The notes under the pieces were generated by a model, which was not told the DNA's origin, made no database searches, and saw nothing but the letters and a program-made list of their open reading frames with translations. The position numbers were made by a program, and so were the translations under genes. This document shows, piece by piece, positions 43,674-60,176 of a stretch of 63,132 nucleotides of DNA; within the stretch, counting starts at the first letter, position 1, and each line of letters begins with the position of its first letter. This DNA comes from Betaproteobacteria bacterium (GTDB lineage: Bacteria; Pseudomonadota; Gammaproteobacteria; Burkholderiales; SG8-41): the NCBI GenBank assembly GCA_021732605.1, contig JAKFUS010000020.1, forward strand, positions 1-63,132, read 5' to 3'.

Positions 43674-43687
43674 TTGACCGGAGTCAA
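43674..43687. promoter_or_regulatory. CRP/FNR-type operator, frc-regulator intergenic
   Basis: TTGAC-CGGA-GTCAA, a perfect 5-bp inverted repeat with FNR-like spacing (TTGAT-N4-ATCAA). It is 103 bases upstream of the frc ATG and 165 upstream of the regulator ATG. Confidence 0.8.
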
Positions 43688-43759
43688 GATTCCATTCCAA
43701 TAATTTACTTAAATTAAACAAATAGTTATAAAATTCAAACACCTGCTTGCCGGCGTGCG

Positions 43760-43809
43760 TTTTACGTTCCTTTTTACGTTCCTCTCTTTATGTTCCTATT
43801 CTACGTTCC
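43760..43809 (+). repeat. Tandem TACGTTCC micro-repeat
   Basis: Four units ending in TACGTTCC, TACGTTCC, TATGTTCC and TACGTTCC, with unit starts at 43763, 43775, 43789 and 43802 (period 12-14), separated by T-rich linkers. It ends 42 bases before the regulator ATG. Confidence 0.8.
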
Positions 43810-43851
43810 GGCTTTCACTCCCATTAGCGTTCGCATTTTAATTCTCCACTC

Positions 43852-44460
43852 ATGACCCAGCTCGCGCTGCATCCCCAGTCCAAAGTCATCCGCCTGCAAT
43901 TGCGGCAAAACATGGTTTTGCAAAACCTGGGCGTGGCGCAGTGGAACGAGTTTGAGCCGTTGCTGGAAATCACCGACTATGCCAAGGGCGAAACGCTGGA
44001 ACTTCAGGGTACGCACGCGATGGAGCAGTATTTCATCATCGACGGCATTCTGAAACGCACCGTTTCCAATGCGCAGGGCAAGGAAATGATTCTGCGGTTT
44101 GCCGCGGAAAGCGACATCGACACCAGCTACGCCGCATGGCGTCTGAAGACCCCCATGCCGTATTCGATCCGTGCGGTCACTCGCGTGCGCGCAGCCAAGC
44201 TGTCAATGCTGCAGTGGGCTGCGTTCCTCGAACGACATGCCAAAATCAAGGCCGAGTTTGAGCTTGAAGTGATGAAGCTGATGAGCGAAGTCATGGCGCA
44301 CACCATTACCCTGCATCTGCTCAACGCCCCGGGACGGGTGCAACGCTTCATGCGCAAACACACCGAACTCGCCGAGCGTCTGCCGAAAAAGGAGTTGGCC
44401 TCCTACCTCAACCTGTCGCCGGAAACGCTGAGCCGCCTCAAGCGGCGCGGCAAGATTTAG
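43852..44460 (+). CDS. Cysteine-free CRP/FNR-family regulator
   Basis: 202 residues. A cyclic-nucleotide-type beta-roll sensor domain (about 20-125: ITDYAKGETLELQGTHAMEQY, FIIDGILKRTVSNAQGKEMIL) is followed by a dimer helix and a compact C-terminal helix-turn-helix (LPKKELASYLNLSPETLSRLKRRGKI, given as ELASYLNLSPETLSRLKRR). The recognition helix carries E-T-L-S-R, the E..SR motif by which FNR-type proteins read TTGAT/TTGAC half-sites. There is no cysteine at all, so an FNR iron-sulfur cluster is impossible, and the canonical cAMP cassette is not evident. It lies between frc and oxc and matches four TTGAC-N4-GTCAA boxes, so it is the likely oxalate-pathway regulator. Confidence 0.88.
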   Translation: MTQLALHPQSKVIRLQLRQNMVLQNLGVAQWNEFEPLLEITDYAKGETLELQGTHAMEQYFIIDGILKRTVSNAQGKEMILRFAAESDIDTSYAAWRLKTPMPYSIRAVTRVRAAKLSMLQWAAFLERHAKIKAEFELEVMKLMSEVMAHTITLHLLNAPGRVQRFMRKHTELAERLPKKELASYLNLSPETLSRLKRRGKI

Positions 44461-44544
44461 CGCGCCCTGCAGCAGGATTCGCGAGTACTTTTGATGCATC
44501 GCAATACCCGGTATGGGGAAGGCCATACTGGCCGAGGGCAAAAA

Positions 44545-44558
44545 TTGACCGGGGTCAA
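44545..44558. promoter_or_regulatory. CRP/FNR-type operator upstream of oxc
   Basis: TTGAC-CGGG-GTCAA, a perfect inverted repeat differing from the frc box only in the spacer, 220 bases upstream of the oxc ATG. Confidence 0.8.
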
Positions 44559-44680
44559 GAGTGCGGTCAGACGCTTTCCCCTATCATTCACCCGTTAAAT
44601 CAAAGCCATGTTTAGATGGTCTGGATCTGCCGCAAATCGAAGAGATTCGGCATTCGTTTCAGCCCTGCATACCTTCCGCG

Positions 44681-44741
44681 GCAACTACACCTCGCAACTA
44701 CACCTCGCAACTACACCTCATTAACACCTCATTAAAACGCC
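44681..44741 (+). repeat. 13-bp tandem repeat in the oxc leader
   Basis: GCAACTACACCTC occurs three times without a mismatch (44681, 44694 and 44707), followed by two 11-base variants ATTAACACCTC and ATTAAAACGCC. It ends 36 bases before the oxc ATG. Confidence 0.92.
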
Positions 44742-44777
44742 TGTTTAATTGACGGCAAGAAGACGAGACGGCTCAAC

Positions 44778-46514
44778 ATGACAACTGACACGCAAGCACA
44801 AGAACAGACCGACGGCTTCAATCTGGTGATCGATGCCCTCAAACTCAACGGCATCGATACGATTTTCGGTCTGCCCGGCATTCCCATTACCGACCTCACG
44901 CGCAAGATACAGGCTGCGGGCATGCGCATGATTTCCTTCCGCCATGAGCAGAACGCCGGCAATGCCGCCGCGATCGCCGGCTTCCTGACGCAAAAGCCCG
45001 GCATCTGCCTGACGGTGTCCGCTCCCGGTTTCCTCAATGGCTTGACCGCACTGACCAACGCCACCACCAACTGCTTCCCGATGATCCTGATCAGCGGCTC
45101 CAGCGAGCGCGAGATCGTCGATCTGCAGCAGGGTGACTACGAAGAGATGGACCAGCTCGCCATCGCCAAGCCGCTGTGCAAAGCCGCCTTCCGCGTACTC
45201 AACGCCGAGGACATCGGCATCGGCATCGCGCGCGCCATCCGCGCTGCGGTCTCCGGGCGTCCGGGCGGCGTCTACCTCGACTTGCCGGCCAAACTCTTTT
45301 CTCAAAGCATGGACGCTGCCGCCGGCAAAGCCTCGCTGATCAAGGTGGTTGATCCGGCGCCGCGCCAGATCCCGGCACCGGATGCGGTACAACGTGCGCT
45401 CAATTTGCTGAAGACCGCCAAGCGTCCGCTGATCGTGCTCGGCAAAGGCGCCGCCTATGCCCAGGCCGACGCCGACATCCGCGCCCTGGTCGAAAAAACC
45501 GGCATCCCCTATCTGCCGATGTCCATGGCCAAAGGCCTGCTGCCGGACAACCATAAACAGTCCGCAGCCGCAGCACGCTCCTATGTGCTGCCCGAAGCGG
45601 ACGTCGTGGTGCTGATCGGCGCGCGGCTGAACTGGCTGCTGTCGCACGGCAAGGGCAAGACCTGGGGTGGCAAGGATCACAAGGCTTGGGGCAGCCAGAA
45701 GTATGTCCAGATCGATATTTCGCCGCAGGAGGCGGACAGCAATGTGCGCATTGATGCGCCGGTGGTCGGTGACATCGGCTCCTGCGTGTCAGCCATGCTG
45801 GGGGCCATCAACGCCGCGGGCGCCGGCTGGCCGCAGCCGTCCGCGGACTGGCTCGGCGCCATCGACGAACGCAAGACCAAGAACATCGCCAAAATGGCAG
45901 AAACACTGGCGAAGAATCCTTCGCCGATGAATTTCCACAGCGCGCTGAACGTGATGCGCGACGTCATCAAGGCCAACCCGGACGCCATGCTGGTCAACGA
46001 AGGCGCCAACGCGCTGGACTTCACGCGCAGCATTGTCGACATGTACAGGCCGCGCAAACGCCTCGACGTCGGCACCTGGGGCGTGATGGGCATCGGCATG
46101 GGCTTTGCGGTCGCAGCCGCCGTAGTCAGCGGCCAGCCGGTGATCGCGGTGGAAGGCGACAGTGCCTTCGGTTTCTCCGGCATGGAGGTCGAGACCATCT
46201 GCCGCTACAACCTGCCGGTATGCGTGGTGGTAATGAACAACAATGGTGTCTACAAGGGCACCGATGTCAACCCGACCGGCGGCCCCGATGTGGCGCCCAC
46301 GGTGTTTGTCAAAGGCGCGCGTTACGACAAAATGATGGAAGCCTTCGGCGGCGTGGGCGTGCATGCCACGACCCCGGCGGAATTGCGCAAGGCAGTGGAA
46401 GAAGCCGTGCGTTCGCGCAAACCCACGCTGATCAATGCGGTCATCGATGAAACCGCGGGCACCGAAAGCGGCCGCATCACCAGCTTGAATCCGACGGCGG
46501 CAAAAAAGAAATAA
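44778..46514 (+). CDS. oxc: Oxalyl-CoA decarboxylase
   Basis: 578 residues, a thiamin-diphosphate enzyme. The pyrimidine domain holds the catalytic Glu in [17 protein letters not shown] and an oxalyl-CoA-type segment [20 protein letters not shown]. The ThDP-binding motif is [19 protein letters not shown]...[11 protein letters not shown]. Length and motifs match Oxc of oxalotrophs. It converts oxalyl-CoA to formyl-CoA and CO2, closing the cycle with Frc. A strong terminator follows. Confidence 0.94.
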
Positions 46515-46530
46515 AACAAGGCAACAAAAA

Positions 46531-46567
46531 AATCCGGCCCGGGCAGTTTTTCCGGGCCGGATTTTTT
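46531..46567 (+). terminator. Terminator of oxc
   Basis: A 12-bp perfect stem (AATCCGGCCCGG / CCGGGCCGGATT) with a 9-nt loop and a T-run, 17 bases after the oxc stop. Confidence 0.95.
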
Positions 46568-46577
46568 TATCGTTGCG

Positions 46578-46682
46578 CTTCAGTTGCGGGAAGCATCAAC
46601 CTGCGTTTTGAACTTGGGCTGCGGCAAGCATCATCCTGCACGTCGCCCTCAAGCCGCGAGAAGCTTCAACTCGCATTCCTCA
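46578..46682. repeat. Three 35-bp imperfect repeats overlapping the tctA end
   Basis: Units start at 46578, 46613 and 46648, exactly 35 bases apart. Each has the core CTTCAG-TTGCGGGAAGC-TCAACCTGC with substitutions. The last unit overlaps the final codons and stop of tctA (46666), so the tctA C-terminus may have been shaped by repeat turnover. Confidence 0.8.
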
Positions 46683-48162
46683 TTCTTGCCTTCAGCTTGC
46701 CAATCAAGGGCCAGAACAGCATCAGCAATCCCAGCGCCATGATGCTGCCGACCAGTCCGTTGGAGAAAAACACCCGCACGTCACCCTGCGAGATCAGCAT
46801 TGACTGACGGAAAGCATCCTCGGCCTGGTCACCCAGCACCAGGGCCAGCACCAGCGGCGCCATCGGGTAGGACAGTTTCTTGAAGGCGTAACCCATGACA
46901 CCGAACAGCAGCATGAACCAGATGTCCAGCATCGCGTTATTCACCGTGAAAGCGCCGATGGCGCAGATCACGATGATCACCGGCGCCACGATCGAGAACG
47001 GGATGCGCAGGATTGCGGCGAACAGCGGCACGCAGGTCAGCACGATGATCAGTCCGACGATGTTGCCCAGATACATGCTGGCAATCAGGCCCCAGACAAA
47101 ATCCTTCTGCTCGACAAACAGCAGCGGCCCCGGCTGCAGGCCCCAGATCAGCAGCCCGCCCAGCAGCACCGCAGCCGTCGGCGACCCGGGGATGCCCAGC
47201 GACAGCATCGGCAGCAGGGCCGCCGTGCCCGCAGCATGGGCGGCAGTCTCCGGCGCGATGATGCCTTCGGGCATGCCGGTGCCGAACTTGGCGCCGTCCG
47301 GGGACATGCGCTTGGCGATGCCGTAGCTCATGAAAGAAGCCGGCGTCGCCCCACCCGGCGTAATGCCCATCCAGCAGCCGATGATGCAGCTGCGCAGCGA
47401 AGTCAGCCAGTATTTCGGCAGCTTTTTCCAGGTATCAATGACAATCCGCATATCGATCTTGGCGGCGCGGCCCTGGAACGACAGCCCCTCTTCCATCGAC
47501 AACAGGATCTCTCCGATGCCAAACAAGCCGATCACCGCGATCAGGAAGTCGAAACCGCGCATCAGTTCGTGCCAGCCGAAGATCAGCCGCAACTGCCCGG
47601 TCACCGTATCGATGCCGACCGCAGCCAGCGCGAATCCGAGCATCATCGCAGCGACAATTTTAAATGGCGGTTCCTTGCCCATGCCGATAAAGCTGCAGAA
47701 GGTCAGGAAAAACACCGAGAAAAACTCCGGCGGCCCGAATTTCAATGCAAATTTCGCCACCAGCGGCGCGAGGAAAGTGATCATCACCACAGCAAAAAAC
47801 GCGCCGATGAACGAAGACGTGAACGCCGTAGTCAGGGCCTCGCCTGCCTTGCCCTGCTGCGCCATCGGGTAACCGTCGAAGGTGGTCGCCACCGACCAGG
47901 GCTCGCCCGGAATATTGAACAGGATGGAGGTGATGGCACCGCCGAACAGCGCGCCCCAGTAAATGCAGGACAGCATGATCACCGCCGAGGTCGGCGGCAT
48001 CGTAAATGTCAGCGGCAGCAGAATCGCGATACCGTTGGCCCCGCCCAGTCCGGGCAATACGCCGATCAGTACACCCAGGACGATGCCGATGACCATCAAC
48101 ATCAGGTTGAACGGCGTCAGCGCAACGGAGAAGCCGTGAAATAGGGCGTTGATTTCTTCCAA
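46666..48162 (-). CDS. tctA: TctA, large membrane subunit of tripartite tricarboxylate transporter
   Basis: 498 residues with about eleven membrane segments, starting at a TTG with AGGAG eight bases upstream. TctA motifs: GVLIGVLPGLGGANGIAILLPL, LSCIYWGALFGGAITSILFNIPGE, GIGEILLSMEEG, GCWMGITPGGATPASFMSYG and PEGIIAPETAAHAAGTAALLPM (split as PEGIIAPETAAHAAG). It is the secondary-active channel part of TTT systems that import di- and tricarboxylates. The operon runs tctC-tctB-tctA, and the upstream CRP/FNR box suggests oxalate or a related acid as substrate. Confidence 0.93.
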   Translation of the reverse strand: MEEINALFHGFSVALTPFNLMLMVIGIVLGVLIGVLPGLGGANGIAILLPLTFTMPPTSAVIMLSCIYWGALFGGAITSILFNIPGEPWSVATTFDGYPMAQQGKAGEALTTAFTSSFIGAFFAVVMITFLAPLVAKFALKFGPPEFFSVFFLTFCSFIGMGKEPPFKIVAAMMLGFALAAVGIDTVTGQLRLIFGWHELMRGFDFLIAVIGLFGIGEILLSMEEGLSFQGRAAKIDMRIVIDTWKKLPKYWLTSLRSCIIGCWMGITPGGATPASFMSYGIAKRMSPDGAKFGTGMPEGIIAPETAAHAAGTAALLPMLSLGIPGSPTAAVLLGGLLIWGLQPGPLLFVEQKDFVWGLIASMYLGNIVGLIIVLTCVPLFAAILRIPFSIVAPVIIVICAIGAFTVNNAMLDIWFMLLFGVMGYAFKKLSYPMAPLVLALVLGDQAEDAFRQSMLISQGDVRVFFSNGLVGSIMALGLLMLFWPLIGKLKARMRNAS

Positions 48163-48189
48163 GTCGCCTGCTCCTCTAAATCAATATGG

Positions 48190-48714
48190 TCAGTAACCGA
48201 TGAAGCTCAGGGGATTGAAAGCGCCCTTGAACAGCGGCACCTTGAACCATACTTCGAACATCATGAAAGTAGCGACGCTGACGGCGATGCCGAGCAGTAC
48301 GCTTTTGATCAAGGTGTATTTGCCCAGCCAGACCATGAAAAAAGCAATATAGGCCACTGACGCGACATAAATGCCGATCATCTGAATGCCAAATACAAAA
48401 AACGCGGCCGGCACCAGCACCGACATCACCAGCTTCAACTGCTCCCACTCGACGAACACCTTGTGTTCGCCACGCGACTTGCCGAACAGCACCTGGCCCA
48501 GGGTCCCCAGGCTGGCAATACAAATGATTACGGCGATGTAAAACGGGAAATATCCGGCTTCGGGACCGTCCGACGCCCAGCGAAACCCGAGGCGGACGCT
48601 GTCATACATGACCAGGGAGCCCAGAATCAGCAGAAATACGGCAACAACGATCTCTGCAGTCCGCACCGAGATGCCGGAGGGCGCTGCTTCACCGGAAACC
48701 TGTTTATCTTCCAT
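48190..48714 (-). CDS. tctB: TctB, small membrane subunit of tripartite tricarboxylate transporter
   Basis: 174 residues from the ATG at 48714 (a TTG three codons earlier is also possible). Four membrane segments (IVVAVFLLILGSLVMYDSV, GYFPFYIAVIICIASLGTL, and two near the C-terminus with a FGIQMIGIYVASVAYIAFFM stretch). The length and four-helix layout match TctB. It follows tctC after a hairpin-containing gap and precedes tctA by 27 bases. Confidence 0.88.
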   Translation of the reverse strand: MEDKQVSGEAAPSGISVRTAEIVVAVFLLILGSLVMYDSVRLGFRWASDGPEAGYFPFYIAVIICIASLGTLGQVLFGKSRGEHKVFVEWEQLKLVMSVLVPAAFFVFGIQMIGIYVASVAYIAFFMVWLGKYTLIKSVLLGIAVSVATFMMFEVWFKVPLFKGAFNPLSFIGY

Positions 48715-48772
48715 GCGATTCAACCCAGTGCTTTAAGAAAAACCTGAAGTCATCCCCGAGGGATGCAAAGTT

Positions 48773-48800
48773 CCGGCGGACCGCTAAGGTGGCCCGCCGG
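48773..48800 (-). terminator. Intercistronic hairpin between tctC and tctB
   Basis: CCGGCGG at 48773-48779 pairs with CCGCCGG at 48794-48800 around a partly paired loop; no T-run follows. Such hairpins often protect the upstream message, here tctC, and lower expression of the membrane subunits. Confidence 0.55.
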
Positions 48801-48816
48801 GATACACGATCAACGA

Positions 48817-49827
48817 TCAGGGTTTGGCGAGGAAACCGGCTTCCTTCATCAGGTCGCGGTGCAGCGCTTCCGCCTTGGCCACCCAGTCGGCATAGGATTT
48901 GCCGGTCATGTAGGTTTGGTTAAATGCGCCGTCTTCCATGAATTTTTTCCATTCCGGAGTCGCACGCACCTTGTTGAACAGATCAACATAAAACGCAACC
49001 ACGTCCGGCGCCACGCCGGCCGGCATGAAAATGCCGCGCAGCATCACGTATTCCATCGGAACTCCGGATTCCTTGCAGGTCGGAATGTCGTTCCAGGACT
49101 GGGTTGCGGTGACCTTGTCTTTATACGGCATGCGCTGATCGTCAAACACACACAAGGCGCGCAGTGCCCCGGCGCGCCACTGCGCCACTGCTTCGATCGG
49201 ATTGTTGACACTCGAGTTGATGTGTTTGCCGACCAGCTGCGTTGCCACTGCACCGCCGCCCTTGAAAGGGATGTAGGTGAACTTGACGCCTGCCGCCTTT
49301 TCAATGGCCACGGTAATGATCTGGTCTTCCTGCTTGGAACCGGTGCCGCCCATCTTGAAGGTGTTCGGGCCACCCTTTTTCACCGCGTCCAGATATTCCC
49401 TGGCTGTTTTGTAGGGATCTTCCGCATTCACCCACAGCACGAAGTTGTCCAGTGACAGCATCGCAACCGGCGTCAGCTCTTTCCAGTTGAAAGGCACACC
49501 GGTGGCCATCGGCGTCGTGAACAGGTTCGACAGTGTAATGATGATCTTGTGCGGATCGCCCTTTGCGGCCTTCACCTCGAGGAAACCTTCGGCACCGGCA
49601 CCACCCGATTTGTTGACGGGAATGAGTGCCTGCTTCATCAGGTTGTGCTTGGCAACAATGCCCTGAATCAGGCGTGCCATCTGGTCGGCACCGCCACCGG
49701 TTCCGGCGGGAATCACGAATTCAACCGGTTTGGTCGGCTCCCAGGCTGCGACAGGGCCGGATACGGTCACCAGTCCGCAGACTGCGAGCGACAGCAGACC
49801 ACGCGACAATACTCGTTGGATATCCAT
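48817..49827 (-). CDS. tctC: TctC-type periplasmic substrate-binding protein
   Basis: 336 residues from the ATG at 49827, which has GAGGAGGAG upstream; an ATG at 49932 would add a non-signal extension. Signal peptide: VLSRGLLSLAVCGLVTVSGPVAAW. Bug/TctC-family landmarks: PVEFVIPAGTGGGADQMARLIQ, NKSGGAGAEGFLEVKAAKGD, FTYIPFKGGGAVATQLVGKHIN and YKTAREYLDAVKKGG-type lobe segments. It delivers a carboxylate to TctAB. The upstream operator ties it to the oxalate genes. Confidence 0.92.
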   Translation of the reverse strand: MDIQRVLSRGLLSLAVCGLVTVSGPVAAWEPTKPVEFVIPAGTGGGADQMARLIQGIVAKHNLMKQALIPVNKSGGAGAEGFLEVKAAKGDPHKIIITLSNLFTTPMATGVPFNWKELTPVAMLSLDNFVLWVNAEDPYKTAREYLDAVKKGGPNTFKMGGTGSKQEDQIITVAIEKAAGVKFTYIPFKGGGAVATQLVGKHINSSVNNPIEAVAQWRAGALRALCVFDDQRMPYKDKVTATQSWNDIPTCKESGVPMEYVMLRGIFMPAGVAPDVVAFYVDLFNKVRATPEWKKFMEDGAFNQTYMTGKSYADWVAKAEALHRDLMKEAGFLAKP

Positions 49828-49949
49828 GTAATGCTCCTCCTCGTTAATGGAACGACGGGTGCTGAGTTTTATCTGCGGCAATTGCCGCAGCTCAACCTTA
49901 TTGGAACGTCGTAGCGTCCCATTCTTTCGCATTTGCCGCCGCGAAAGAA

Positions 49950-49963
49950 TTGACCAAAATCAA
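49950..49963. promoter_or_regulatory. CRP/FNR-type operator upstream of tctC
   Basis: TTGAC-CAAA-ATCAA, one mismatch from the other boxes and closest of the four to the FNR consensus. It is 123 bases upstream of the tctC ATG. A further TTGAT half-site lies a few bases away. Confidence 0.7.
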
Positions 49964-50105
49964 GAATCAAGTATATCCACGGCCGCATGGAGTGTCATAG
50001 AGGCTGCGCTGCCGTTTCAGTTGCGAACCTGATCGGGACGCAAGGCGGTTCACTGTTTGCGCTCGCGGGGACGGGTGCCGTCAGCGGTGACGGGGAATAA
50101 AATAT

Positions 50106-50118
50106 CAATAAAAACAAT
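50106..50118. repeat. CAATAAAAACAAT element, copy 2
   Basis: Exact 13-base copy in the AT-rich patch between tctC and the stress-protein gene. The context ATCAATAAAAACAATA is shared with the copy at 53862. Confidence 0.5.
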
Positions 50119-50245
50119 AATTTACGGATCTCACCCGAGAGGGCGGTGGCAGTCAGTTCCGGCATCACGGCGCAATCGTCCAAGCGGTAACGCCCGCATC
50201 AGCGCAGCGCTCGCAGAGAGCCCGGGCTGCGGCCTGGGGCAGTCA

Positions 50246-50274
50246 ATATGCGCCGTGGCCCCCACGGCGCATAT
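50246..50274 (-). terminator. Hairpin after the usp gene
   Basis: A perfect 13-bp stem (ATATGCGCCGTGG / CCACGGCGCATAT) with a 3-nt loop, 22 bases after the usp stop. There is no T-run, so it is either a weak terminator or a message-end stabiliser. Confidence 0.6.
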
Positions 50275-50295
50275 CAGGACAGCACATCGCCCCTC

Positions 50296-50724
50296 TTACT
50301 TGACCACAGTCACCGGAACAGTCGTCAGGTAAAGAACCTTGGTCGCGATGGAACCGAGCACCAGGCCGCCCACCGAACCCAGGCCCCGGCTTCCCATCAT
50401 GATCTGGTCACAAGCCTTGGTTTTCGCATACTCAACAATCACTTCGGCAGGTTCGCCAACGCCGATGTGGTGGGTGTAGGCCATTCGCGCAGCATCGAGA
50501 CGCTCGCGGGCCAGCTTCAGAGCCGCAGTACCTTCCTCACGGTAATATTCATTCAGCGATTCATTGCTGATGAACATCTTTACGTTGACACCGGCAATCG
50601 GCATTTGCACATGGAGCAAATGTACTTCGACGGGGGCCTTGAAGGCGCTGCCGGTTTTAACCAGAAATTCAATCACCCGTCCGGAGGTCTCCGATCCGTC
50701 GACAGCAACCAGTATTTTAGGCAT
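50296..50724 (-). CDS. Universal stress protein (UspA family)
   Basis: 142 residues from the ATG at 50724; a longer open frame upstream overlaps terC and has no family sequence. Motifs: MPKILVAVDGSETSGRVIEF at the start and the ATP-binding GSRGLGSVGGLVLGSIATKV (G-2X-G-9X-G-S/T), so it is the ATP-binding UspA type. It is eight bases downstream of terC and shares its transcript. The role in this operon is unknown. Confidence 0.88.
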   Translation of the reverse strand: MPKILVAVDGSETSGRVIEFLVKTGSAFKAPVEVHLLHVQMPIAGVNVKMFISNESLNEYYREEGTAALKLARERLDAARMAYTHHIGVGEPAEVIVEYAKTKACDQIMMGSRGLGSVGGLVLGSIATKVLYLTTVPVTVVK

Positions 50725-50732
50725 TTTCTTTC

Positions 50733-51458
50733 TCAGTCCTTTTTGGGTTCTGCTTGCGCGAGATCGACTGGCGTCGCATGAGTAGTTGCAGACGCGCGTC
50801 GAGCCAGCCATTTGCCGACCACTACCACTATCAAGACACCCGCCACCGGACCGCCATAATTCATCCAGGCAGCATTGGCCGCTACCCATCCTTGTACTAT
50901 TACGTCGCGCACCAGCATGTCCCCGGCAATCCAGCCCAACAGTGCAGCACCAAAGACGATCACCACCGGGAAACGATCCATAAGTTTCAGCACCAGTGTG
51001 CTGCCCCAGACGATTATCGGCACGCTCACTATCAAGCCGAAGATGACTAGTCCGATGCTGTCCTTGGCCGCAGCCGAAATTGCAATCACGTTGTCGAGGC
51101 TCATCACCGCATCGGCCACAATAATGGTTTTAATGGCCCCGAGCAGATTGGTACTCGCGTCGATTTCGTGCCCGCCCTCATGCTGGGGCATCATCAACTT
51201 CAGCGCGATCCAGAAAAGCAACAAACCACCGACGATCTTGAGGAAAGGTATCTGCAACAGTTGCAGGGCAAAAAAGATCAGTATCACGCGCAGCGCGATC
51301 GCCCCGAATACCCCCCAGAATATGGCCTTTTTGCGCTGACTATCTGGCAGTCGACGCGAAGCAAGGGCGATTACAACCGCGTTATCGCCTCCTAAAATGA
51401 TATCAATGGCGATGATCTGGACTACCGCAACCCAGAATGCCGGTGAGCCGAATTCCAT
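50733..51458 (-). CDS. TerC-family integral membrane protein
   Basis: 241 residues with seven predicted membrane segments. Family signatures: DIILGGDNAVVIALASRRLP and VADAVMSLDNVIAISAAAK, the two acidic repeats GGDN and SLDN thought to bind a metal, found in TerC/Alx manganese exporters. A Lys/Thr-rich cytoplasmic tail ends the protein. It lies 148 bases downstream of fhs. Metal export or exoenzyme metallation are the known family themes. Confidence 0.88.
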   Translation of the reverse strand: MEFGSPAFWVAVVQIIAIDIILGGDNAVVIALASRRLPDSQRKKAIFWGVFGAIALRVILIFFALQLLQIPFLKIVGGLLLFWIALKLMMPQHEGGHEIDASTNLLGAIKTIIVADAVMSLDNVIAISAAAKDSIGLVIFGLIVSVPIIVWGSTLVLKLMDRFPVVIVFGAALLGWIAGDMLVRDVIVQGWVAANAAWMNYGGPVAGVLIVVVVGKWLARRASATTHATPVDLAQAEPKKD

Positions 51459-51606
51459 GATTTTTTACCCGAGCTAGTTAAAAACGTGGTTGAGGGCATT
51501 GTCTCCCCCTCAAATCCAAACGGAGGGTCTAGGACCGCGCCGCACACCGCACCTGCTCTGCAGGCCCCATACGGGGCTGCAGAACCGTGTCAATCATATC
51601 AAACAA

Positions 51607-53283
51607 TCAGAACAGGCCGACCACTTTGCCTTCGTCCGTCAGATCAATACGCTCCGATGACGGCACCTTCGGCAGCCCCGGCATGGTCATGATGTCGCCA
51701 CAGACCATCACCACGAACTCGGCGCCAGCCGACAGCCGCACTTCGCGAATGTTGACCATGTGCCCCGAAGGCGCACCGCGCAAACCCGCGTCGGTAGAGA
51801 ACGAATACTGCGTTTTGGCCACGCACACCGGGTAGTCGCCGTAACCATCTTCCTGCAGTTTCTTGATCTGGCCACGCACCTTGTTGTCGGCGGAAATGTC
51901 AGCTGCACCGTAAATCTTGGTGGCGATGGTTTTCATTTTGTCCCACAGCGGCAGTTTCTCGTCGTAGACGAACTTGAACTGGTTCTCGCCCTGATCGATC
52001 AGTTCGACAACCTTTTTCGCCACTTCGGTCGCGCCAGCGCCACCGTCCGCCCAGTGCCGCGCCAGCAATACAGGCACGTTGTGCGGCGCCATTTTCTTCT
52101 TCAGTAATTCGATTTCAGCATCGGTGTCAAAGGTGAAGTGATTGATCGACACCACGCACTTCAGCCCATAATTCTCACGCACGTTTTTGACATGGCGCTC
52201 GAGGTTGGCCACGCCTTTTTCCAGTGCCGCGAGGTTTTCCTTGTTCAGTTCCTTGACGTCGGCGCCACCGTGGAACTTCAGGGCCCGGATGGTCGCCACG
52301 ATCACGCAGGCGTCTGGTCTCAGACCGGATTTTCGGCACTTGATATCGACAAACTTTTCGGCCCCGAGGTCGGCACCAAAACCGGCCTCGGTCACCACAT
52401 AGTCGGCCAGTTTCAGCGCGGTCTGGGTGGCAATCACGGTGTTGCAGCCGTGAGCAATGTTGGCAAAGGGGCCGCCGTGCACAAACGCCGCGTTGTTCTC
52501 CAGCGTCTGCACCAGGTTCGGCGCCAGCGCGTCTTTCAGCAGCACGGTCATCGCGCCATGTACTTTCAGGTCCTTGGCTCGCACCGGTTTCAGATCGCGG
52601 GTGTACGCAACAACGATATTGCCAAGCCGCGTTTTAAGATCCTTCAGCGAAGTTGCCAGACAGAAAATCGCCATCACTTCGGAAGCAACAACGATGTCAA
52701 AACCGTCCTGGCGCGGATAACCGTTGCCCGGCCCGCCCAGCGATACGGTGATGTCGCGCAGTGCGCGGTCGTTCATGTCCATCACCCGTTTCCAGGTGAT
52801 GCGACGCACGTCGATGCCAAGTTCGTTGCCGTGATGAATGTGGTTATCCATCGCCGCAGCCAGCAGGTTGTTGGCCAGCGCAATGGCGTTGAAGTCGCCA
52901 GTGAAGTGGAGGTTGATGTCTTCCATCGGCACGATCTGCGCGTAACCGCCACCCGCTGCGCCACCCTTCATGCCGAACACGGGACCGAGTGAGGGCTCAC
53001 GCAGGCAAATGATGGCTTTTTTACCAATCTTGTTCAGCGCGTCGCCCAGACCGACGGTGGTCGTGGTCTTGCCTTCGCCGGCCGGTGTCGGGCTGATGGC
53101 AGTGACCAGAATCAGCTTGCCGTTTTTCCTGTCCTTCAGACTGTCGACATACTCCAGCGACACCTTGGCCTTGGTGTGGCCGTACGGCACCAGATGCTCC
53201 TCGGGGATGCCCAACTTTTGCGCAATCTTGACGATGCGCTCCATTTTCGCCGCTTGGGCAATTTCAATATCCGACAGTGCCAT
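51607..53283 (-). CDS. fhs: Formate-tetrahydrofolate ligase
   Basis: 558 residues, the family length. The P-loop is [20 protein letters not shown]; others are [26 protein letters not shown] (in parts [17 protein letters not shown] and NLHFTGDF), [21 protein letters not shown], and [15 protein letters not shown]. It makes 10-formyl-THF from formate, ATP and THF, bringing formate from oxalate or other C1 sources into the folate pool. It follows the formate dehydrogenase genes by 87 bases, so assimilation and oxidation of formate are genetically linked. Confidence 0.95.
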
Positions 53284-53370
53284 GTTGTTTCTCTCCTGAA
53301 CGTGATCAGATGAACGCCCGCAGAACGGGCTGTATTTTTGCCTGCTGTTTCGATTTGCTGCTGTTAAGCG

Positions 53371-56181
53371 TTAAGCCTTCGCGAGTTGCGCCAGCACTTG
53401 CCCACCGCCGTAGCTGGAACGCGGTGTCAGTTCACCACCCTTCATGACCTTGACCGCGCAGTACTTGAACTCGGGAATCTTGCCGAAGGGATCCAGCGCG
53501 GCATTGGTCAGCAGGTTCACCGCCGCTTCGTAGTAACAGAAGGGAATGAACACTGCGCCGCGTGGTGTGCCGTCATCAGCACGCGCATGCAGCGAAATCA
53601 GGCCGCGCCGCGATTCAACGGTGATCACATCACCACCCCGCGCGCCGATCTGGTCGAGATCCAGCGGATGCATGGACACCGTCGGTTCCGGCTCGATCGC
53701 ATCAAGCACGCCGGCTCGGCGCGTCATCGCGCCGGTGTGCCAGTGCTCAAGCTGACGGCCGGTGATCAGCACAAACGGAAACTCGCGATCCGGACGTTCG
53801 TTGGCGGGGATGACATCGGCCGGCACAAATTTGGCCTTGCCTGTACTTGTCGGAAATTTATCAATAAAAACAATAGGTTGTCCTGGATCGCCTTCTTCTT
53901 CGCAGGGATAGGTGACACAGCTCTCGGCTTCCAGCCGCTCCCAGGTGATGCCGGCGATGGAGTTCATCGCCTGGCGCATCTCGTTAAACACATCCTTCGG
54001 ACCGCTGTAATTCCAGTCGAGTCCGAGCCGGCGCGCCAGTTCCTGGATGATCCACAGGTCGGGCTTGGCCTCGCCCGGCGCGTCCAGCGCCTTGCGGCCC
54101 AGTTGCACCATGCGATCGGTGTTGGTCACCGTGCCGTCTTTTTCCGGCCATGCGGTCGCCGGGAAAATCACATCGGCGTAATAACAGGTTTCGGTGAGGA
54201 AAATTTCCTGCACCACCAGGCAGTCGAGTTTCGCCAGCGCTTCGCGCGCATGGTGCGCATCGGGATCCGACATCGCCGGGTTTTCGCCCATCACGTACAT
54301 GCCGCGGATCTCGCCCTGCAGCGTGGCGTGAATGATTTCCACCACCGTCAGGCCGGGTTTGGGATCGAGCTTCATGCCCCACAGTTTTTCGAAACGCGCC
54401 AGCGCCTGCGGATTATCGACGCGCTGGTAATCCGGGAACACCATCGGGATCAGGCCGGAGTCGGAAGCGCCCTGCACGTTGTTCTGCCCGCGCAGCGGAT
54501 GCAGCCCCGTGCCGGGACGGCCGATCTGGCCGGTCATCAGACACAGCGCGATCAGGCAGCGCGCATTGTCGGTGCCGTGGATGTGCTGTGAAATGCCCAT
54601 GCCCCACAGGATCATCGAAGCTTTGGAGGTCGCATAAACCCGCGCCACTTCCCTGATGGTCTCGGCGGGAATGCCGCACACCGGCGCCATCGCTTCCGGG
54701 CTGTAACCTTCGACGTTTTTCTTCAGGTCCTCGTAACCAATGGTGCGCGACTTGATGAAATCCTCATCGACCAGGCCTTCGTGGACGATGACATGCATCA
54801 TCGCGTTCAGCAGCGCGACGTCGGTGTCGGCCTTGAACTGCAGCGAATGCGCGGCATGGCGCGACAGTTCAGAGCGCCTTGGATCGGCGTAAATCAGCTT
54901 GGCGCCGTTTTTCACCGCATTCTTGATCCAGGTCGCCGCCACCGGATGGTTGGAGATCGGATTGGCGCCAATCAGGAAAATGACTTCGGCGTTGGTCACA
55001 TCGCTGACCTGGTTTGACACCGCGCCGGAGTTCACTGCCTCCATCAGTGCCGCCACACTCGAGGCATGGCACAGCCGCGTGCAGTGGTCGACATTGTTGG
55101 AACCAAAACCGGTGCGCACCAGTTTCTGGAACAGATAGGCTTCCTCGTTGGTCCCTTTCGCCGAACCGAACCCGGCCAGTCCTTTTTTTCCGCTCTGGTC
55201 GCGTATTGCACGCAACTTGCCCGCAGCCAGGTCCAGCGCTTCTTCCCAGGTCGCTTCGCGGAAATACTCCAGCGGGTTCGCCGGATCCATCGTGAAGTCG
55301 GCGTGCTTGGGTGCGCCCGGCTTGCGGATCAGCGGCTTGGTCAGTCGCTGCTTGTGGTGCACATAGTCAAAGCCGTAACGGCCCTTGACGCACAGACGCT
55401 CGTGGTTGGACGGGCCATCGCGGCCGTCCACGGAAATGATCTTGTTATCCTTGATGTTGTAGGTCAGCTGGCAGCCGACACCGCAGTACGGGCACACCGA
55501 ATGTACCTGCTTGTCGAGCTTGACCAGTCCGGCTTCGCGCGCCGGCATCAGCGCGCCGGTCGGGCAGGCCTGCACGCATTCACCGCAGGCAACACAGGTC
55601 GAATCACCCATGGCGTCACCGAGGTCGAACACGATCGACGAATGTTCGCCGCGGAAAGCGTAACCGATCACGTCGTTGACCTGCTCTTCGCGGCAGGCGC
55701 GCACGCAGCGCGTGCACTGGATGCAGGAATCAAGATTGACCGCGATGCCGTAATGCGACACATCGGCCTGCGGCTGGTTACGCGCCTTGAAACGCGGCTT
55801 GCCGACCTTGAGTTTGGCCACCCACTGGTCAAGCTCGGAATTACGGGTATGGCGTTTCTCCGGCATGTCGGAGAGCAGCAGCTCCATGACCATTTTCTGC
55901 GAGGCCAGCGCGCGCGCGTTGTCCGTCGTGACTTCCATGCCCGGCGCCGGCTTGCGGCAGCAGGATGCCGCAAGCACGCGTTCACCCTTGACCTCGACCA
56001 TGCAGGCGCGGCAATTGCCGTCGGGCCGCATGCCCTCCTTGTAGCAGAGGTGCGGAATCTCCACGCCGTGGCGCTTCGCCGTCTGGATGATGGTCTCCGA
56101 GGCGTAGCCGACCACGTCCTTGCCGTTCAGCTTGAACTCGACCGGCATTGCCGCCAGTTCATCCTTGTTCATCGCAGTCAT
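53371..56181 (-). CDS. fdsA: NAD-dependent formate dehydrogenase, catalytic subunit
   Basis: 936 residues. Domains in order: a NuoG-type [2Fe-2S] domain (Cys46, 57, 60, 74), a His/Cys [4Fe-4S] region, two [4Fe-4S] ferredoxin clusters (CIQCTRCVRACREE, CVACGECVQACPTG), then the molybdopterin enzyme with its own cluster (CPYCGVGCQLTY) and the metal-ligand Cys in VDHCTRLCHASS (Cys, not selenocysteine). GGAGG seven bases upstream fixes the ATG. It oxidises formate to CO2, passing electrons to the diaphorase subunit and NAD. The layout resembles FDH1 of methylotrophs. An AT-rich patch in the coding region includes a CAATAAAAACAAT element. Confidence 0.93.
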   Translation of the reverse strand: MTAMNKDELAAMPVEFKLNGKDVVGYASETIIQTAKRHGVEIPHLCYKEGMRPDGNCRACMVEVKGERVLAASCCRKPAPGMEVTTDNARALASQKMVMELLLSDMPEKRHTRNSELDQWVAKLKVGKPRFKARNQPQADVSHYGIAVNLDSCIQCTRCVRACREEQVNDVIGYAFRGEHSSIVFDLGDAMGDSTCVACGECVQACPTGALMPAREAGLVKLDKQVHSVCPYCGVGCQLTYNIKDNKIISVDGRDGPSNHERLCVKGRYGFDYVHHKQRLTKPLIRKPGAPKHADFTMDPANPLEYFREATWEEALDLAAGKLRAIRDQSGKKGLAGFGSAKGTNEEAYLFQKLVRTGFGSNNVDHCTRLCHASSVAALMEAVNSGAVSNQVSDVTNAEVIFLIGANPISNHPVAATWIKNAVKNGAKLIYADPRRSELSRHAAHSLQFKADTDVALLNAMMHVIVHEGLVDEDFIKSRTIGYEDLKKNVEGYSPEAMAPVCGIPAETIREVARVYATSKASMILWGMGISQHIHGTDNARCLIALCLMTGQIGRPGTGLHPLRGQNNVQGASDSGLIPMVFPDYQRVDNPQALARFEKLWGMKLDPKPGLTVVEIIHATLQGEIRGMYVMGENPAMSDPDAHHAREALAKLDCLVVQEIFLTETCYYADVIFPATAWPEKDGTVTNTDRMVQLGRKALDAPGEAKPDLWIIQELARRLGLDWNYSGPKDVFNEMRQAMNSIAGITWERLEAESCVTYPCEEEGDPGQPIVFIDKFPTSTGKAKFVPADVIPANERPDREFPFVLITGRQLEHWHTGAMTRRAGVLDAIEPEPTVSMHPLDLDQIGARGGDVITVESRRGLISLHARADDGTPRGAVFIPFCYYEAAVNLLTNAALDPFGKIPEFKYCAVKVMKGGELTPRSSYGGGQVLAQLAKA
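53862..53874. repeat. CAATAAAAACAAT element, copy 3, within fdsA
   Basis: This exact copy lies inside the fdsA coding sequence, where it encodes part of PIVFIDKF in unusually AT-rich codons for this gene. Confidence 0.45.
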
Positions 56182-56219
56182 GCCATTACCTCCGTGCGGC
56201 GCGCATCAACCATCGCGCC

Positions 56220-57917
56220 TCACTTGACCTCTTGGGGAAAATATTTGATTACGGTGCGGATCGGATTGGGCGCAGCCTGCCCCAGCCCGCAAATCGAAGC
56301 GTCGGCCATCGCGGCCGACAGTTCTTCGAGCAAACCCTGATCCCAGCTCGGTGACTCCATCAGCTGCAGCGCCTTCGCCGTGCCGACACGGCAGGGCGTG
56401 CACTGGCCGCAGGATTCCTCGGCAAAAAACTTCATCACGTTACGCGCGGCACCGCTGGCTTTGTCTTTATCCGAAAAAATGATCACGGCGGCAGAACCGA
56501 TAAAACAACCGTAGGGATGCAGGGTGTCGAAATCGAGCGGCACGTCACCCAGCGACGCCGGCAGGATGCCGCCGGAGGCACCACCCGGCAAATAGCCGTA
56601 AAACCCATGCCCCGGCAGCATGCCGCCGCAATATTCGGCAATCAGCTCTTTCACCGTGATGCCCGCCGGCGCGAGATGCACACCGGGTTTCTGCACACGG
56701 CCCGACACCGAAAACGAACGCAGGCCCTTGCGGCCGTGGCGACCATGGCCGGCAAACCAGTCGGCGCCCTTTTCCAGGATGTCGCGCACCCAGTACAGGG
56801 TTTCCATGTTGTGTTCGAGCGTCGGGTAACCGAACAGCCCCACCTGCGCCACATAGGGCGGGCGCAGCCGCGGCATGCCGCGTTTGCCCTCGATGGATTC
56901 GATCATCGCGGATTCTTCACCGCAGATATAGGCTCCGGCACCGCGGCGCAGGAAAATCTGCGGCAGCGGGCAGGGCGGATCGGCCTGCAAGGCCTTGATT
57001 TCTTTTTCGAGTATGGCACGCACACCGGCGTATTCATCACGCAGGTATATATAGATCTCGGACACCTGCACGGTCCACGCGGCAATCAGCATGCCTTCGA
57101 GAAAACGGTGTGGATCGGTTTCCAGGTAATGGCGGTCCTTGAAAGTGCCGGGTTCGCCCTCATCGATATTGACCGCCATCACCCGCGGGCCTTTTTCGCC
57201 GCGTACGATGCGCCATTTGCGCCCCGTCGGGAAACCCGCGCCGCCCAGACCGCGCAGGCTGGAATTTTCCATGGTCTTAATCAGGGTTTCGGCATCACGC
57301 TTGCCGGCCAGGCATTCCGCCGGGATGGTGTAACCGCCCTGCTTGCGATAGTCAGCGTAGGTCACATATTTGCCGACGGCACATTGCGTTTTCTTTGCCC
57401 CCACTAAGGACTTGACCTTGTCGACCGTCGCCTGCGCCACCGGATTCTGGCCAACCACGGCGACCGGTGCCTGCTCACAACGGCCGACGCAAGGCGCCGG
57501 AATCACGCGCACGCCGTCGCCCAATGCTTGCTTCAAGCCGGTCATCAACGCACCCGCGCCGGACAGCTCACAGGACAGGGAATCGCAAACACGCACCGTC
57601 AATGCCGGCGGCGCCTTGTCGCCTTCCTTCACCACATCGAAGTGGTGATAGAAAGTGGCGACCTCATAAACTTCGGTCATCGCCAGCTTCATTTCGCGCG
57701 CAAGTGCGACGATGTGCGCGGCGGCAATGTGGCCGTACTGATCCTGGATGCGATGCAGATTTTCAATCAGCAGGTCGCGGCGGCGCGGATTCACGCCAGT
57801 CTCGCGCTGCGCATCGTTCAGCAACTTCTGCACGTCCGCCAGCGCCCGCGTATCCAACGCGCGGCCCTTGAGGGCCCCACGTGTCCGTTTTCCGCGCTTT
57901 ACGATGCCACCTTCCAA
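56220..57917 (-). CDS. fdsB: NAD-dependent formate dehydrogenase, fused gamma-beta diaphorase subunit
   Basis: 565 residues from a TTG start with AGGAG eight bases upstream; no better ATG is available without losing conserved sequence. Residues 1-170 are NuoE-like with the [2Fe-2S] cysteines (VCDSLSCELSG, CVGRCEQAP). Residues ~215-560 are NuoF-like: FMN/NADH site RGLGGAGFPTGRKWRIV, NIDEGEPGTFKDRHYLE, YICGEESAMIESIEG, and [4Fe-4S] SCGQCTPCRVGT. The gamma and beta subunits, separate in Cupriavidus Fds, are fused as in Methylobacterium FDH1. It passes electrons from the catalytic subunit to NAD. Confidence 0.92.
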   Translation of the reverse strand: MEGGIVKRGKRTRGALKGRALDTRALADVQKLLNDAQRETGVNPRRRDLLIENLHRIQDQYGHIAAAHIVALAREMKLAMTEVYEVATFYHHFDVVKEGDKAPPALTVRVCDSLSCELSGAGALMTGLKQALGDGVRVIPAPCVGRCEQAPVAVVGQNPVAQATVDKVKSLVGAKKTQCAVGKYVTYADYRKQGGYTIPAECLAGKRDAETLIKTMENSSLRGLGGAGFPTGRKWRIVRGEKGPRVMAVNIDEGEPGTFKDRHYLETDPHRFLEGMLIAAWTVQVSEIYIYLRDEYAGVRAILEKEIKALQADPPCPLPQIFLRRGAGAYICGEESAMIESIEGKRGMPRLRPPYVAQVGLFGYPTLEHNMETLYWVRDILEKGADWFAGHGRHGRKGLRSFSVSGRVQKPGVHLAPAGITVKELIAEYCGGMLPGHGFYGYLPGGASGGILPASLGDVPLDFDTLHPYGCFIGSAAVIIFSDKDKASGAARNVMKFFAEESCGQCTPCRVGTAKALQLMESPSWDQGLLEELSAAMADASICGLGQAAPNPIRTVIKYFPQEVK

Positions 57918-57977
57918 AATCTGTTCTCCTCACTCATTGCTTACCGCTCATGCATGCCGGCCACGCGGCTGTTGCGA

Positions 57978-58010
57978 ACAAGACACCGGGCAAAAGCCCC
58001 GGTGTCTTGT
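57978..58010 (-). terminator. Hairpin after sucD
   Basis: A 13-bp perfect stem (ACAAGACACCGGG / CCCGGTGTCTTGT) with a 7-nt loop, 9 bases after the sucD stop and 61 bases before the fdsB start. The tail is T-poor (TTGTTC), so partial read-through into the formate dehydrogenase genes is likely. Confidence 0.7.
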
Positions 58011-58018
58011 CAGCGGAT

Positions 58019-58903
58019 TTATTTCAGTACCGACTTCAGCAACTTGCCCATCTCGGCGGGATTTTTGGTGGTCTTGATGCCACACTCTTCCATCACCGAG
58101 AGTTTTTCTTCCGCAGTGCCCTTGCCGCCGGAAATGATCGCGCCGGCATGGCCCATGCGTTTGCCCGGGGGCGCAGTAACACCGGCAATGAAGCCGACCA
58201 CAGGTTTTTTCATGTTGGCCTTGATCCAGCGCGCACATTCCTCTTCGTTCGAGCCGCCGATCTCGCCGACCATGATCACCGCTTCGGTCTGCGGGTCATC
58301 GTTGAACATTTTCATCACATCAATATGCTTTAACCCGTTCACCGGATCGCCGCCGATGCCGACGCAGGACGACTGGCCCAGCCCGATTTCCATCAACTGG
58401 CCGACCGCTTCGTAGGTCAGTGTGCCGGACCGCGACACCACGCCGATCGGACCTTTTTTGTGAATATGGCCGGGCATGATGCCGATCTTGATTTCTTCCG
58501 GCGTGATCACCCCGGGGCAGTTCGGTCCGATCAGCAGGGTTTTGCTCTTGTTCTGCTCCATCTTGTACTTGAGGCGCACCATGTCACGCACCGGGATGCC
58601 TTCGGTGATGCAAATCACCAGTTCCAGCTGCGCATCCACCGCCTCTTCGATCGCTGCAGCGGCAAAGGGCGGCGGCACGTAGATGACGGACACATTGGCA
58701 CCCGTCGCATCTTTCGCTTCGCGCACCGAATTGAAGATGGGAATGCCTTCATAACTCTGGCCACCCTTTTTCGGCGTTACACCGGCAACGTAGCAGTTCT
58801 TGCCGTTGGCGTATTCCTTGCCGGTCTTGGTATGGAACATCCCCGTTTTACCGGTGATGCCCTGGGTCATGACCCGGCTGTTTTTGTTAATCAGGATAGA
58901 CAT
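58019..58903 (-). CDS. sucD: Succinyl-CoA synthetase alpha subunit
   Basis: 294 residues. Rossmann CoA-binding start [39 protein letters not shown], and the phosphohistidine segment [23 protein letters not shown] with [12 protein letters not shown] and the later [12 protein letters not shown]. It overlaps the sucC stop by one base (TGATG). It makes or uses succinyl-CoA with ATP or GTP in the TCA cycle. Malate-CoA ligase homologues look similar, but the sequence fits ordinary betaproteobacterial SucD. Confidence 0.93.
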
Positions 58904-60072
58904 CAGTTCTTCCCCTTCGCCGCAGCAACCACTTTCTGCGCGGCATCAGCCATGTTGTTGCCGGAAATGATCGGCAGTCCCGATTCGGCGAGGATTTTCT
59001 TGCCGAGATCGACGTTGGTGCCTTCGAGGCGCACCACCAGCGGCACACTGAGGCTGACCTCGCGCGCCGCAGCCACCACGCCCTGCGCAATCACATCGCA
59101 TTTCATGATGCCGCCGAAAATATTGACCAGGATCGCGCGCAGCTCGGGATTGCGCAGCATGATCTTGAACGCCTCAGTGACCTTCTCCGCAGTGGCGCTG
59201 CCGCCGACGTCGAGGAAGTTGGCGGGACTGCCGCCGTAGAGCTTGATGATGTCCATCGACGCCATGGCGAGACCGGCGCCGTTGACCAGGCAGCCGATGT
59301 TGCCGTCGAGCTGGATGTAATTGAGATCGTGCTTGGAGGCCTCGACTTCGGCCGGATCTTCTTCGTCGAGGTCGCGCAGCGCAACCAGGTCGGGGTGGCG
59401 GAACAGCGCATTGCCGTCAAAATCGATCTTGGCATCGAGCGCAATCACCTTGCCATCGCCGGTGAGGATCAAAGGATTGATTTCAGCCAGCGAAGCATCG
59501 TTTTCGTCGAAGGCCTTGTAGAGGGCCTGCAGCAGTGCCCGCGCCTGCGGTATTGATGCCGCGGGCACACCGATTTTGCGCGCCACCTCATCAGCGTCGG
59601 CATCACTCAGCCCTTTGACCGGATCGATCGCAACTTTGTGGATTTTTTCCGGCGTATGTTCAGCCACTTCCTCGATGTCCATGCCACCTTCGCTGGAGGC
59701 CATCAACACCACGCGCTGCGTGCCGCGGTCGATCACCATGCCAACGTAGAGTTCTTTCTTGATATCGGCACCTTCCTCGATCAGCAGCCGCCGCACTTTC
59801 TGTCCTTCGGGGCCGGTCTGGTGCGTCTTCAGCTGCATGCCGAGAATGCTGCTCGCATAAGTTTTCACTTCCGCCGGCGACTTGGCGACCTTGACGCCGC
59901 CGCCCTTACCGCGTCCGCCGGCATGGATTTGCGCCTTGACGACCCACACGCTGCCACCGAGATTGGCGGCAGCGCTGACGGCCTCATCAACGCTGAAACA
60001 AGGGATGCCGCGCGGCGTCGGCACGCCGTATTTGCGCAGCAGTTCTTTGGCCTGGTACTCGTGAATTTTCAT
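58903..60072 (-). CDS. sucC: Succinyl-CoA synthetase beta subunit
   Basis: 389 residues of the ATP-grasp type: [98 protein letters not shown] and [13 protein letters not shown]. Length and sequence are typical of SucC. The operator-like palindrome 91 bases upstream is the same as at the oxalate genes. Succinyl-CoA can donate CoA to oxalate or formate through class III transferases, so SucCD may be the primer of the oxalate cycle here. Confidence 0.93.
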
Positions 60073-60162
60073 TGTTCTGTTCCGCGTGAAATGCGCTCGT
60101 TAAAAAAAGCGCCCTGATTCCGCAGGGACGCCAAATCTATTACAGCGGCTGCAACTCCAGCC

Positions 60163-60176
60163 TTGACCGCAGTCAA
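60163..60176. promoter_or_regulatory. CRP/FNR-type operator upstream of sucC
   Basis: TTGAC-CGCA-GTCAA, a perfect inverted repeat sharing TTGACCG and GTCAA with the frc box, 91 bases upstream of the sucC ATG. Confidence 0.75.

Follow-up and report, generated by a model that had tools for sequence, protein, structure and literature searches.

A palindromic box shared by oxalate and formate genes marks a predicted regulon of a CRP/FNR-family protein in Burkholderiales

Regulators of the FNR/ANR type combine the CRP/FNR fold and an ETxSR recognition helix with a TTGA-N6-TCAA site centred near −41.5, the common class II centre of FNR; the ETxSR helix reads TTGAT, and a TTGACTTAAATCAA box functions in a reporter (in the sections of PMC7349173 consulted). 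On the side of the target genes, EvgA activates the frc-oxc operon yfdXWUVE of E. coli, which carries frc and oxc homologues (in the consulted part of PMC3720670), and this is the sole control of an frc-oxc operon noted among the papers listed by the literature searches. No CRP/FNR protein tied to oxalate genes appeared among those papers, which excluded subscription ones. Here, we analyse a 63,132-nucleotide stretch from a Betaproteobacteria bacterium of the order Burkholderiales (contig JAKFUS010000020.1, assembly GCA_021732605.1; the window hereafter), in which the gene of a small CRP/FNR-superfamily protein, the regulator, lies between frc (formyl-CoA transferase) and oxc (oxalyl-CoA decarboxylase). 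An earlier note on this DNA had proposed that this adjacent protein, with its ETLSR helix, controls frc, oxc, the transporter gene tctC and sucC as one regulon, and the comparative evidence presented below strongly supports that proposal. The regulator is very probably a dedicated activator of oxalate and C1 (formyl-CoA/formate) catabolism that would act through one box.

The window contains four TTGAY-N4-RTCAA sites against an expectation of 0.24, and not one of 100 shuffled sequences gave as many; they are the four palindromes that the earlier note had listed (Table 1) and the only sites of this form in the window. The distance from box centre to start codon is 109 bp for frc, 171 bp for the regulator, 226 bp for oxc, 129 bp for tctC and 97 bp for sucC, those of frc and tctC being counted to internal ATGs (43571 and about 49827) judged from the sequence, with the longest open reading frames starting at 43625 and 49932. 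With one mismatch allowed (TTGAYNNNGGTCAA), three more places in the window, at 43360, 50300 and 57169, are found inside open reading frames. In the whole genome (3,480,056 bases in 75 contigs, 96.5% complete) TTGAYN4RTCAA occurs at 14 places versus 4 for the pattern read backwards, so that the motif is above chance here as in the window, and 4 of these 14 sites fall inside the 63-kb window (binomial p = 9e-5). The looser TTGAN6TCAA has 43 sites versus 15 for the reversed pattern, and the four window boxes are the only ones among the 43 that conform to TTGACC-N3-RTCAA on either strand, a stricter form picked post hoc with the sites already known and counted from the site list. Chance palindromes were rejected on the window count against expectation, the genome-wide count and the upstream placement in the loci of relatives. 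A further TTGAN6TCAA site of this genome lies at C46:17134 (TTGACCGCGTTCAA).

The placement of the box is conserved in relatives. Around 80 homologues of the regulator (the best 80 of 116 relatives, overlapping with the sampled genomes that bear G numbers below) the neighbourhood contains oxc in 74 loci, tctA in 68, frc in 67, tctC in 63 and an fmt-like gene in 62. All 74 oxc genes have TTGA-N6-TCAA within 400 bp of upstream sequence, as do 78 of the 80 regulator genes, 39 of 63 tctC, 21 of 43 fhs and 27 of 67 frc genes; in a separate count, a box at tctC is present in 38 of the 56 loci with at least 300 bp upstream of that gene. For frc the arrangement matters: when counted as directly facing the regulator it is boxed in 27 of 32 loci (in L078, L080 and L102, three of the five exceptions, a lyase-like gene intervenes), and when placed behind oxc it has its own box in none of 35. 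Altogether, these 80 loci contain 171 TTGAYN4RTCAA sites, and 165 of them are followed within 300 bp by a recognised start (frc, regulator, oxc, tctC, fhs, fmt-like or terC); of the remaining six, one is inside recognised coding sequence, which totals about 714 kb, and five lie elsewhere. The boxes that relatives carry at fhs and other cluster genes go beyond the earlier note. In some lineages (G078, G122, G261, G185, G280) a separate box precedes the fmt-like gene. The cluster is also carried by contigs titled Bordetella parapertussis (L045, L054-L057, L059, L061, L062, L103, L106, L122), several of them highly identical to the window; these titles look like mislabelled environmental metagenome-assembled genomes.

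The presence of the box depends on the presence of the regulator gene. Strong matches place the regulator in 39 of 61 relatives (40 at E <= 0.001); oxc was detected in 39 and both genes in 37. By comparison of the two lists, an order sample of 349 genomes has the regulator in 64, oxc in 63 and both in 56; in a phylum sample of 349 genomes the regulator is found in 6, all of the same order, and oxc in 25. A TTGAN6TCAA site 20-400 bp upstream of oxc accompanies the regulator in 56 of 59 genomes, and none of 22 genomes without the regulator has one; the counts cover genomes with fetched loci and at least 300 bp upstream of oxc, G584 being left out for its missing gene start, G177 and G357 for contig ends, and G036 for having 278 bp of upstream DNA, with no box in it. 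The computable refutations of the earlier proposal were not borne out, in that the motif is above chance, relatives keep it at frc and oxc, and oxc-bearing genomes devoid of the regulator are devoid of it. The same-family genome G021 is illustrative in that the fmt-like, frc, oxc, tct and fhs genes are kept, the regulator is absent and there is no box at oxc or fhs. In six regulator-positive genomes oxc and the regulator are on different contigs with upstream DNA present (G038, G044, G092, G348, G212 and G087), and the oxc box is kept in the first four of these, with separate contigs of draft genomes proving separation only as far as the contigs extend. The loci concerned in G038, G044, G092 and G212 are L155-L158, L182 and L184. 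G348 has three regulator homologues (59, 54 and 54 percent) and two tandem boxes upstream of oxc (loci L185 (G348:C55), L220 and L221). A sucC match is present in 57 genomes, and in the 30 of these that were surveyed the sucC box is present in 22 of 24 regulator-positive versus 1 of 6 regulator-negative genomes (these six being G021, G029, G030, G031, G036 and G059); G003, with 265 bp of upstream sequence, and G058 are the two regulator-positive genomes without it.

The promoter geometry bears on the direction of control. A −10 matrix was scored at every offset from the box centre, the chance level being 2 of 56 offsets; the counts cover boxes 40-300 bp from the start and pool the 80 loci with the sampled genomes, only exact or similar downstream sequences being dropped. 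A single dominant −10 peak was found 32-33 bp from the box centre at oxc, frc and fhs, where the best −10 is at 32/33 bp in 86 of 101, 29 of 29 and 24 of 29 distinct promoters, respectively (56 of 70, 14 of 14 and 21 of 26 with similar promoters collapsed), and box and best −10 are combined in this manner upstream of oxc in 47 of the 59 regulator-positive genomes. A box at 32-33 bp from the −10 places the dyad near −41.5, the class II position; as the oxc, frc and fhs promoters all show this distance, activation is the most likely role of the protein. When the genome of the window was searched for a box followed by a −10 with at most one mismatch, a 23-bp gap returned only oxc, sucC and tctC, and a 22-bp gap only frc, the regulator side and C3:72062; matches free of mismatches were confined to oxc, sucC and frc. 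In the same search of six genomes of the genus, reversed-pattern controls gave 0-1 per strand. Computation on the genomes shows that the boxes exist, are conserved, depend on the regulator gene being present and stand at class II spacing.

This geometry does not extend to the regulator's own promoter, for which the earlier note had suggested activation through the divergent box. There, 2 of 84 promoters have their best −10 at the class II distance, where 3 are expected by chance and oxc reaches 86 of 101; regulator genes with a closer box are outside the 84. In the window a TAAATT is present on the regulator side at 43710-43715, 32 bp from the box centre in an AT-rich stretch, and self-activation from it is conceivable in the source genome, with no general support in relatives. 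In several lineages the box of the regulator is about 20-35 bp from its start codon, which fits autorepression better than class II self-activation. Many catabolic regulators are repressors, and one may ask whether the protein represses the oxalate genes too and is relieved by oxalate or a CoA thioester, since self-repression fits the box near the regulator's own start in some lineages. However, the −10 is at the activating class II distance (32-33 bp) at the oxc, frc, fhs and lyase-type promoters (for the last see below), and such fixed spacing would be superfluous for a repressor, which makes this alternative decidedly improbable.

A number of observations weigh against a dedicated activator at all of these promoters. 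The best −10 at tctC is at 32/33 bp in just 15 of 46 promoters (10 of 34 with similar promoters collapsed), which is weak, and 18 of the 56 tctC loci have no box; of 23 boxed sucC loci, 16 have their best −10 at 28 bp and 7 at 32/33 bp. The other five genomes of the genus have extra one-mismatch box-plus-promoter matches elsewhere (up to 10, in G014). Three regulator-positive genomes, G087, G170 and G212, have no box at oxc, two of them (G212 and G087) being different-contig genomes; in G087 and its congener G170 oxc is flanked by fdhA and fhs, and it is fhs that has the box. Conversely, in G021 a near-box, TTGACCAAGCTCAA, precedes tctC by 206 bp (L160:9931), and in G031 (7% contamination; L325) the sucC box is present, both genomes being regulator-negative. 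Since most oxc boxes adjoin the regulator gene, the association is also partly one of shared inheritance.

The two regulator-negative genomes with a box or near-box are among the points in favour of the view that the boxes are read by another CRP/FNR protein, for instance a global one of ANR/DNR/CRP type, and that the neighbouring gene is incidental. TTGA-N6-TCAA is a generic FNR-type site, and the genome of the window (G000) has six other places above the HTH_Crp_2 cut-off, one of which, L173 with the helix SREMVSR, has an E-x-x-S-R helix and might read similar sites; this too counts against the regulator as sole reader. The other five (L170-L172, L174 and L175, some partial) have VRREG[VI]TE or VRRESITQ helices, not ETLSR. 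Several of the matches in relatives are of TTGATNTRGRTCAA type, a different sequence, and such sites presumably resemble ANR/DNR sites. Together with the absence of the oxc box from all 22 examined genomes that lack the regulator and its persistence at unlinked oxc in four of six regulator-positive genomes, these observations render another reader improbable. At G007:C3, G005:C39, G001:C3 and G014:C3, TTGATNTRGRTCAA-like sites have a −10-like hexamer at 32 bp and are perhaps a separate ANR/DNR-type regulon in those relatives.

By comparative standards the regulon is real, with the adjacent protein well ahead of any other candidate for its binder. As a dedicated activator, a dimer of the regulator would bind the TTGAC-N4-GTCAA boxes (TTGAC-N3-GGTCAA when read toward the gene), and with the box centre near −41.5 at frc, oxc and probably tctC and sucC it would contact RNA polymerase in the class II manner. 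Oxalate uptake, activation, decarboxylation and formate use would in this way be turned on jointly. We infer the protein as the binder, its activating role and its signal, which would be a metabolite of the pathway (oxalate, oxalyl-CoA, formyl-CoA or formate) and not oxygen or cAMP.

The regulator has the cyclic nucleotide monophosphate (cNMP)-type beta-roll, the long dimer helix and the C-terminal helix-turn-helix by which the CRP/FNR superfamily is recognised. Its AlphaFold2 model (pLDDT, the predicted local distance difference test, of 90.8) matches CRP, GlxR and FNR structures in Foldseek at low identity, with a best E of 1.5e-11 and roughly 14-21 percent identity among the 50 matches listed. 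PF00027 is found in 42 of 42 aligned homologues and HTH_Crp_2 in 42 of 42 at E <= 0.01, and the ETLSR recognition helix is invariant across them. The window regulator scores under the curated HTH_Crp_2 cut-off; its recognition helix occupies residues 190-198 of 202, and profile positions 18-42 of 70 are matched. The beta wing that follows the recognition helix is missing, the chain stopping a few residues past the helix. This is not taken to exclude membership of the superfamily, as the wing is usual and not obligatory and the protein in Protein Data Bank (PDB) entry 3dn7 is comparably short.

There is no cysteine among the 202 residues of the regulator and none in the invariant or nearly invariant columns of the 42 homologues. 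A protein without cysteine has no FNR-type [4Fe-4S] cluster, and an oxygen-sensing FNR identity was rejected on this ground. That the boxes represent an oxygen- or redox-controlled FNR regulon, with the oxalate genes included by happenstance, would agree with the FNR-like helix and site and with FNR being among the fold matches; given the missing cysteines, and box-plus-promoter matches in the own genome that are nearly confined to the oxalate locus, it is highly improbable. In CRP, the cAMP phosphate-site residues, which we take to be E72, R82 and S83, align to S92, M102 and P103 of the regulator. With these residues replaced the cAMP phosphate site looks absent, and a cAMP-CRP identity was likewise rejected.

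A replacement of oxc in part of the order allows the geometry to be examined at promoters of a different gene. Eight genomes of the order sample are regulator-positive and have no oxc. In seven of these the regulator has a different thiamine diphosphate (ThDP) enzyme for a neighbour, mostly accompanied by frc and the fmt-like gene; G320, the eighth, showed no replacement ThDP enzyme within the fetched 11 kb. The closest solved structure to the replacement enzyme is 2-hydroxyacyl-CoA lyase, and it is 27 percent identical to the OXC of the window. Ten replacement loci (nine distinct, as L102 and L199 are one genome; three from the 80) are all boxed upstream of the enzyme, and a −10-like hexamer is present at 32/33 bp in all ten and is the best-scoring one in eight. 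As these promoters were not used to find the pattern, they are an independent check of it. Replacement loci include L196:3840-5534, L200:6626-8413, L195, L197, L198, L199, L159, L078 and L080. Proteins in L195, in L159 and in G320 (L201) exceed the oxalate/formate antiporter cut-off, those of L195 and L159 being OxlT-type antiporters near the replacement enzyme. The 2-hydroxyacyl-CoA lyase family releases formyl-CoA according to published abstracts, and the replacement enzyme could represent a second oxalyl-CoA decarboxylase lineage or some other enzyme that releases formyl-CoA. That box and spacing are kept after oxc is replaced suggests oxalyl-CoA or formyl-CoA chemistry as the quantity under control. 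One may speculate, as a possible but rather unlikely extension, that the regulator belongs to a wingless, cysteine-free CRP/FNR subfamily with formyl-CoA or oxalyl-CoA as ligand, a CoA-thioester sensor running a transferable 'formyl-CoA module'. On that view formyl-CoA would be what the lineages have in common, since box and spacing persist beside the replacement enzyme and also spread to fhs and the fmt-like gene.

Table 1. Positions of boxes, predicted promoter elements and genes of the oxalate/formate locus in the window
Feature	Position	Strand	Details
Box in the frc/regulator intergenic region	43674..43687	-	forward strand TTGACCGGAGTCAA, toward frc TTGACTCCGGTCAA
Box upstream of oxc	44545..44558	+	TTGACCGGGGTCAA
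Box upstream of tctC	49950..49963	-	forward strand TTGACCAAAATCAA, toward tctC TTGATTTTGGTCAA
Box upstream of sucC	60163..60176	-	forward strand TTGACCGCAGTCAA, toward sucC TTGACTGCGGTCAA
Predicted frc −10, TATAGT	43646..43651	-	32 bp from box centre
Predicted oxc −10, TATCAT	44582..44587	+	33 bp from box centre
Weak predicted tctC −10, AAGAAT	49921..49926	-	one mismatch
Candidate sucC −10, TAGATT	60134..60139	-	33 bp; alternative at 28 bp scores slightly higher
CRP/FNR-superfamily regulator, 202 aa	43852..44460	+	PF00027 E 1.3e-8; recognition helix ETLSR
frc, formyl-CoA transferase	42303..43571 (longest open reading frame starts 43625)	-	TIGR03253 557 bits, equivalog cut-off 504
oxc, oxalyl-CoA decarboxylase	44778..46514	+	TIGR03254 976 bits, equivalog cut-off 739
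fmt-like formyltransferase, 3' of frc	41332..42264	-	PF00551 and PF02911; under NCBIfam fmt cut-off
tctA	46666..48162	-	PF01970
tctB	48190..48723	-	PF07331
tctC, solute-binding subunit of tripartite tricarboxylate transporter	48817..49827	-	PF03401
sucC, sucD, fdhB, fdhA, fhs (same-strand run)	51607..60072	-	sucC box at head; profile matches

TctCBA (46666-49827; Table 1) is a candidate tripartite tricarboxylate transporter (TTT) type oxalate importer, its oxalate specificity being probable from linkage, and the fmt-like protein (41332-42264) is a candidate formyl-CoA/formyl-tetrahydrofolate enzyme. The sucC box, in addition to what the earlier note described, heads a run whose products are succinyl-CoA synthetase, formate dehydrogenase alpha and NuoF-like subunits and formate-tetrahydrofolate ligase. 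No gap in the series sucC, sucD, fdhB, fdhA, fhs exceeds about 100 bp, and the sucC box may therefore govern the whole run, which from this spacing is a possible operon. 'CoA priming' by sucCD, as the earlier note had it, gains no support: a single SucC was found in the genome, 96.5% complete, at E <= 1e-60, and the sucCD of the window is therefore presumably the enzyme of the tricarboxylic acid cycle. In the part of PMC3720670 consulted, YfdE and UctC, neither of which is Frc, gave no oxalyl-CoA from succinyl-CoA and oxalate. Of the earlier interpretation the shared regulon core is strongly supported, and general class II self-activation and the priming role of sucCD are not supported.

With a gene, a precise site, a small target set and a promoter architecture at hand, oxalate sensing by environmental oxalate users becomes directly testable. 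The box can also be employed to flag C1 genes of uncertain function, such as the lyase-type decarboxylase, TTT-type oxalate uptake and the fmt-like enzyme. If the reading is true, the regulator would probably represent a metabolite-sensing branch in a family best known for cAMP and oxygen. Compared with FNR/ANR and their TTGAT-N4-ATCAA site, the regulator has neither cysteine nor Fe-S sensor, its half-site is TTGAC, its targets are oxalate and formate genes and its chain has little beyond the recognition helix. E. coli CRP and GlxR/Mtb CRP are among its nearest folds and have the cNMP-binding domain in common with it, but its cAMP phosphate site looks absent and its DNA site differs from theirs. 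The best PDB sequence match is 3dn7, a cyclic nucleotide binding regulatory protein (E 1.4e-10, 194 aa), which is short like the regulator and remote from it. EvgA, which likewise activates an frc-oxc operon, differs in being a two-component acid-response regulator, an unrelated protein acting at an unrelated site.

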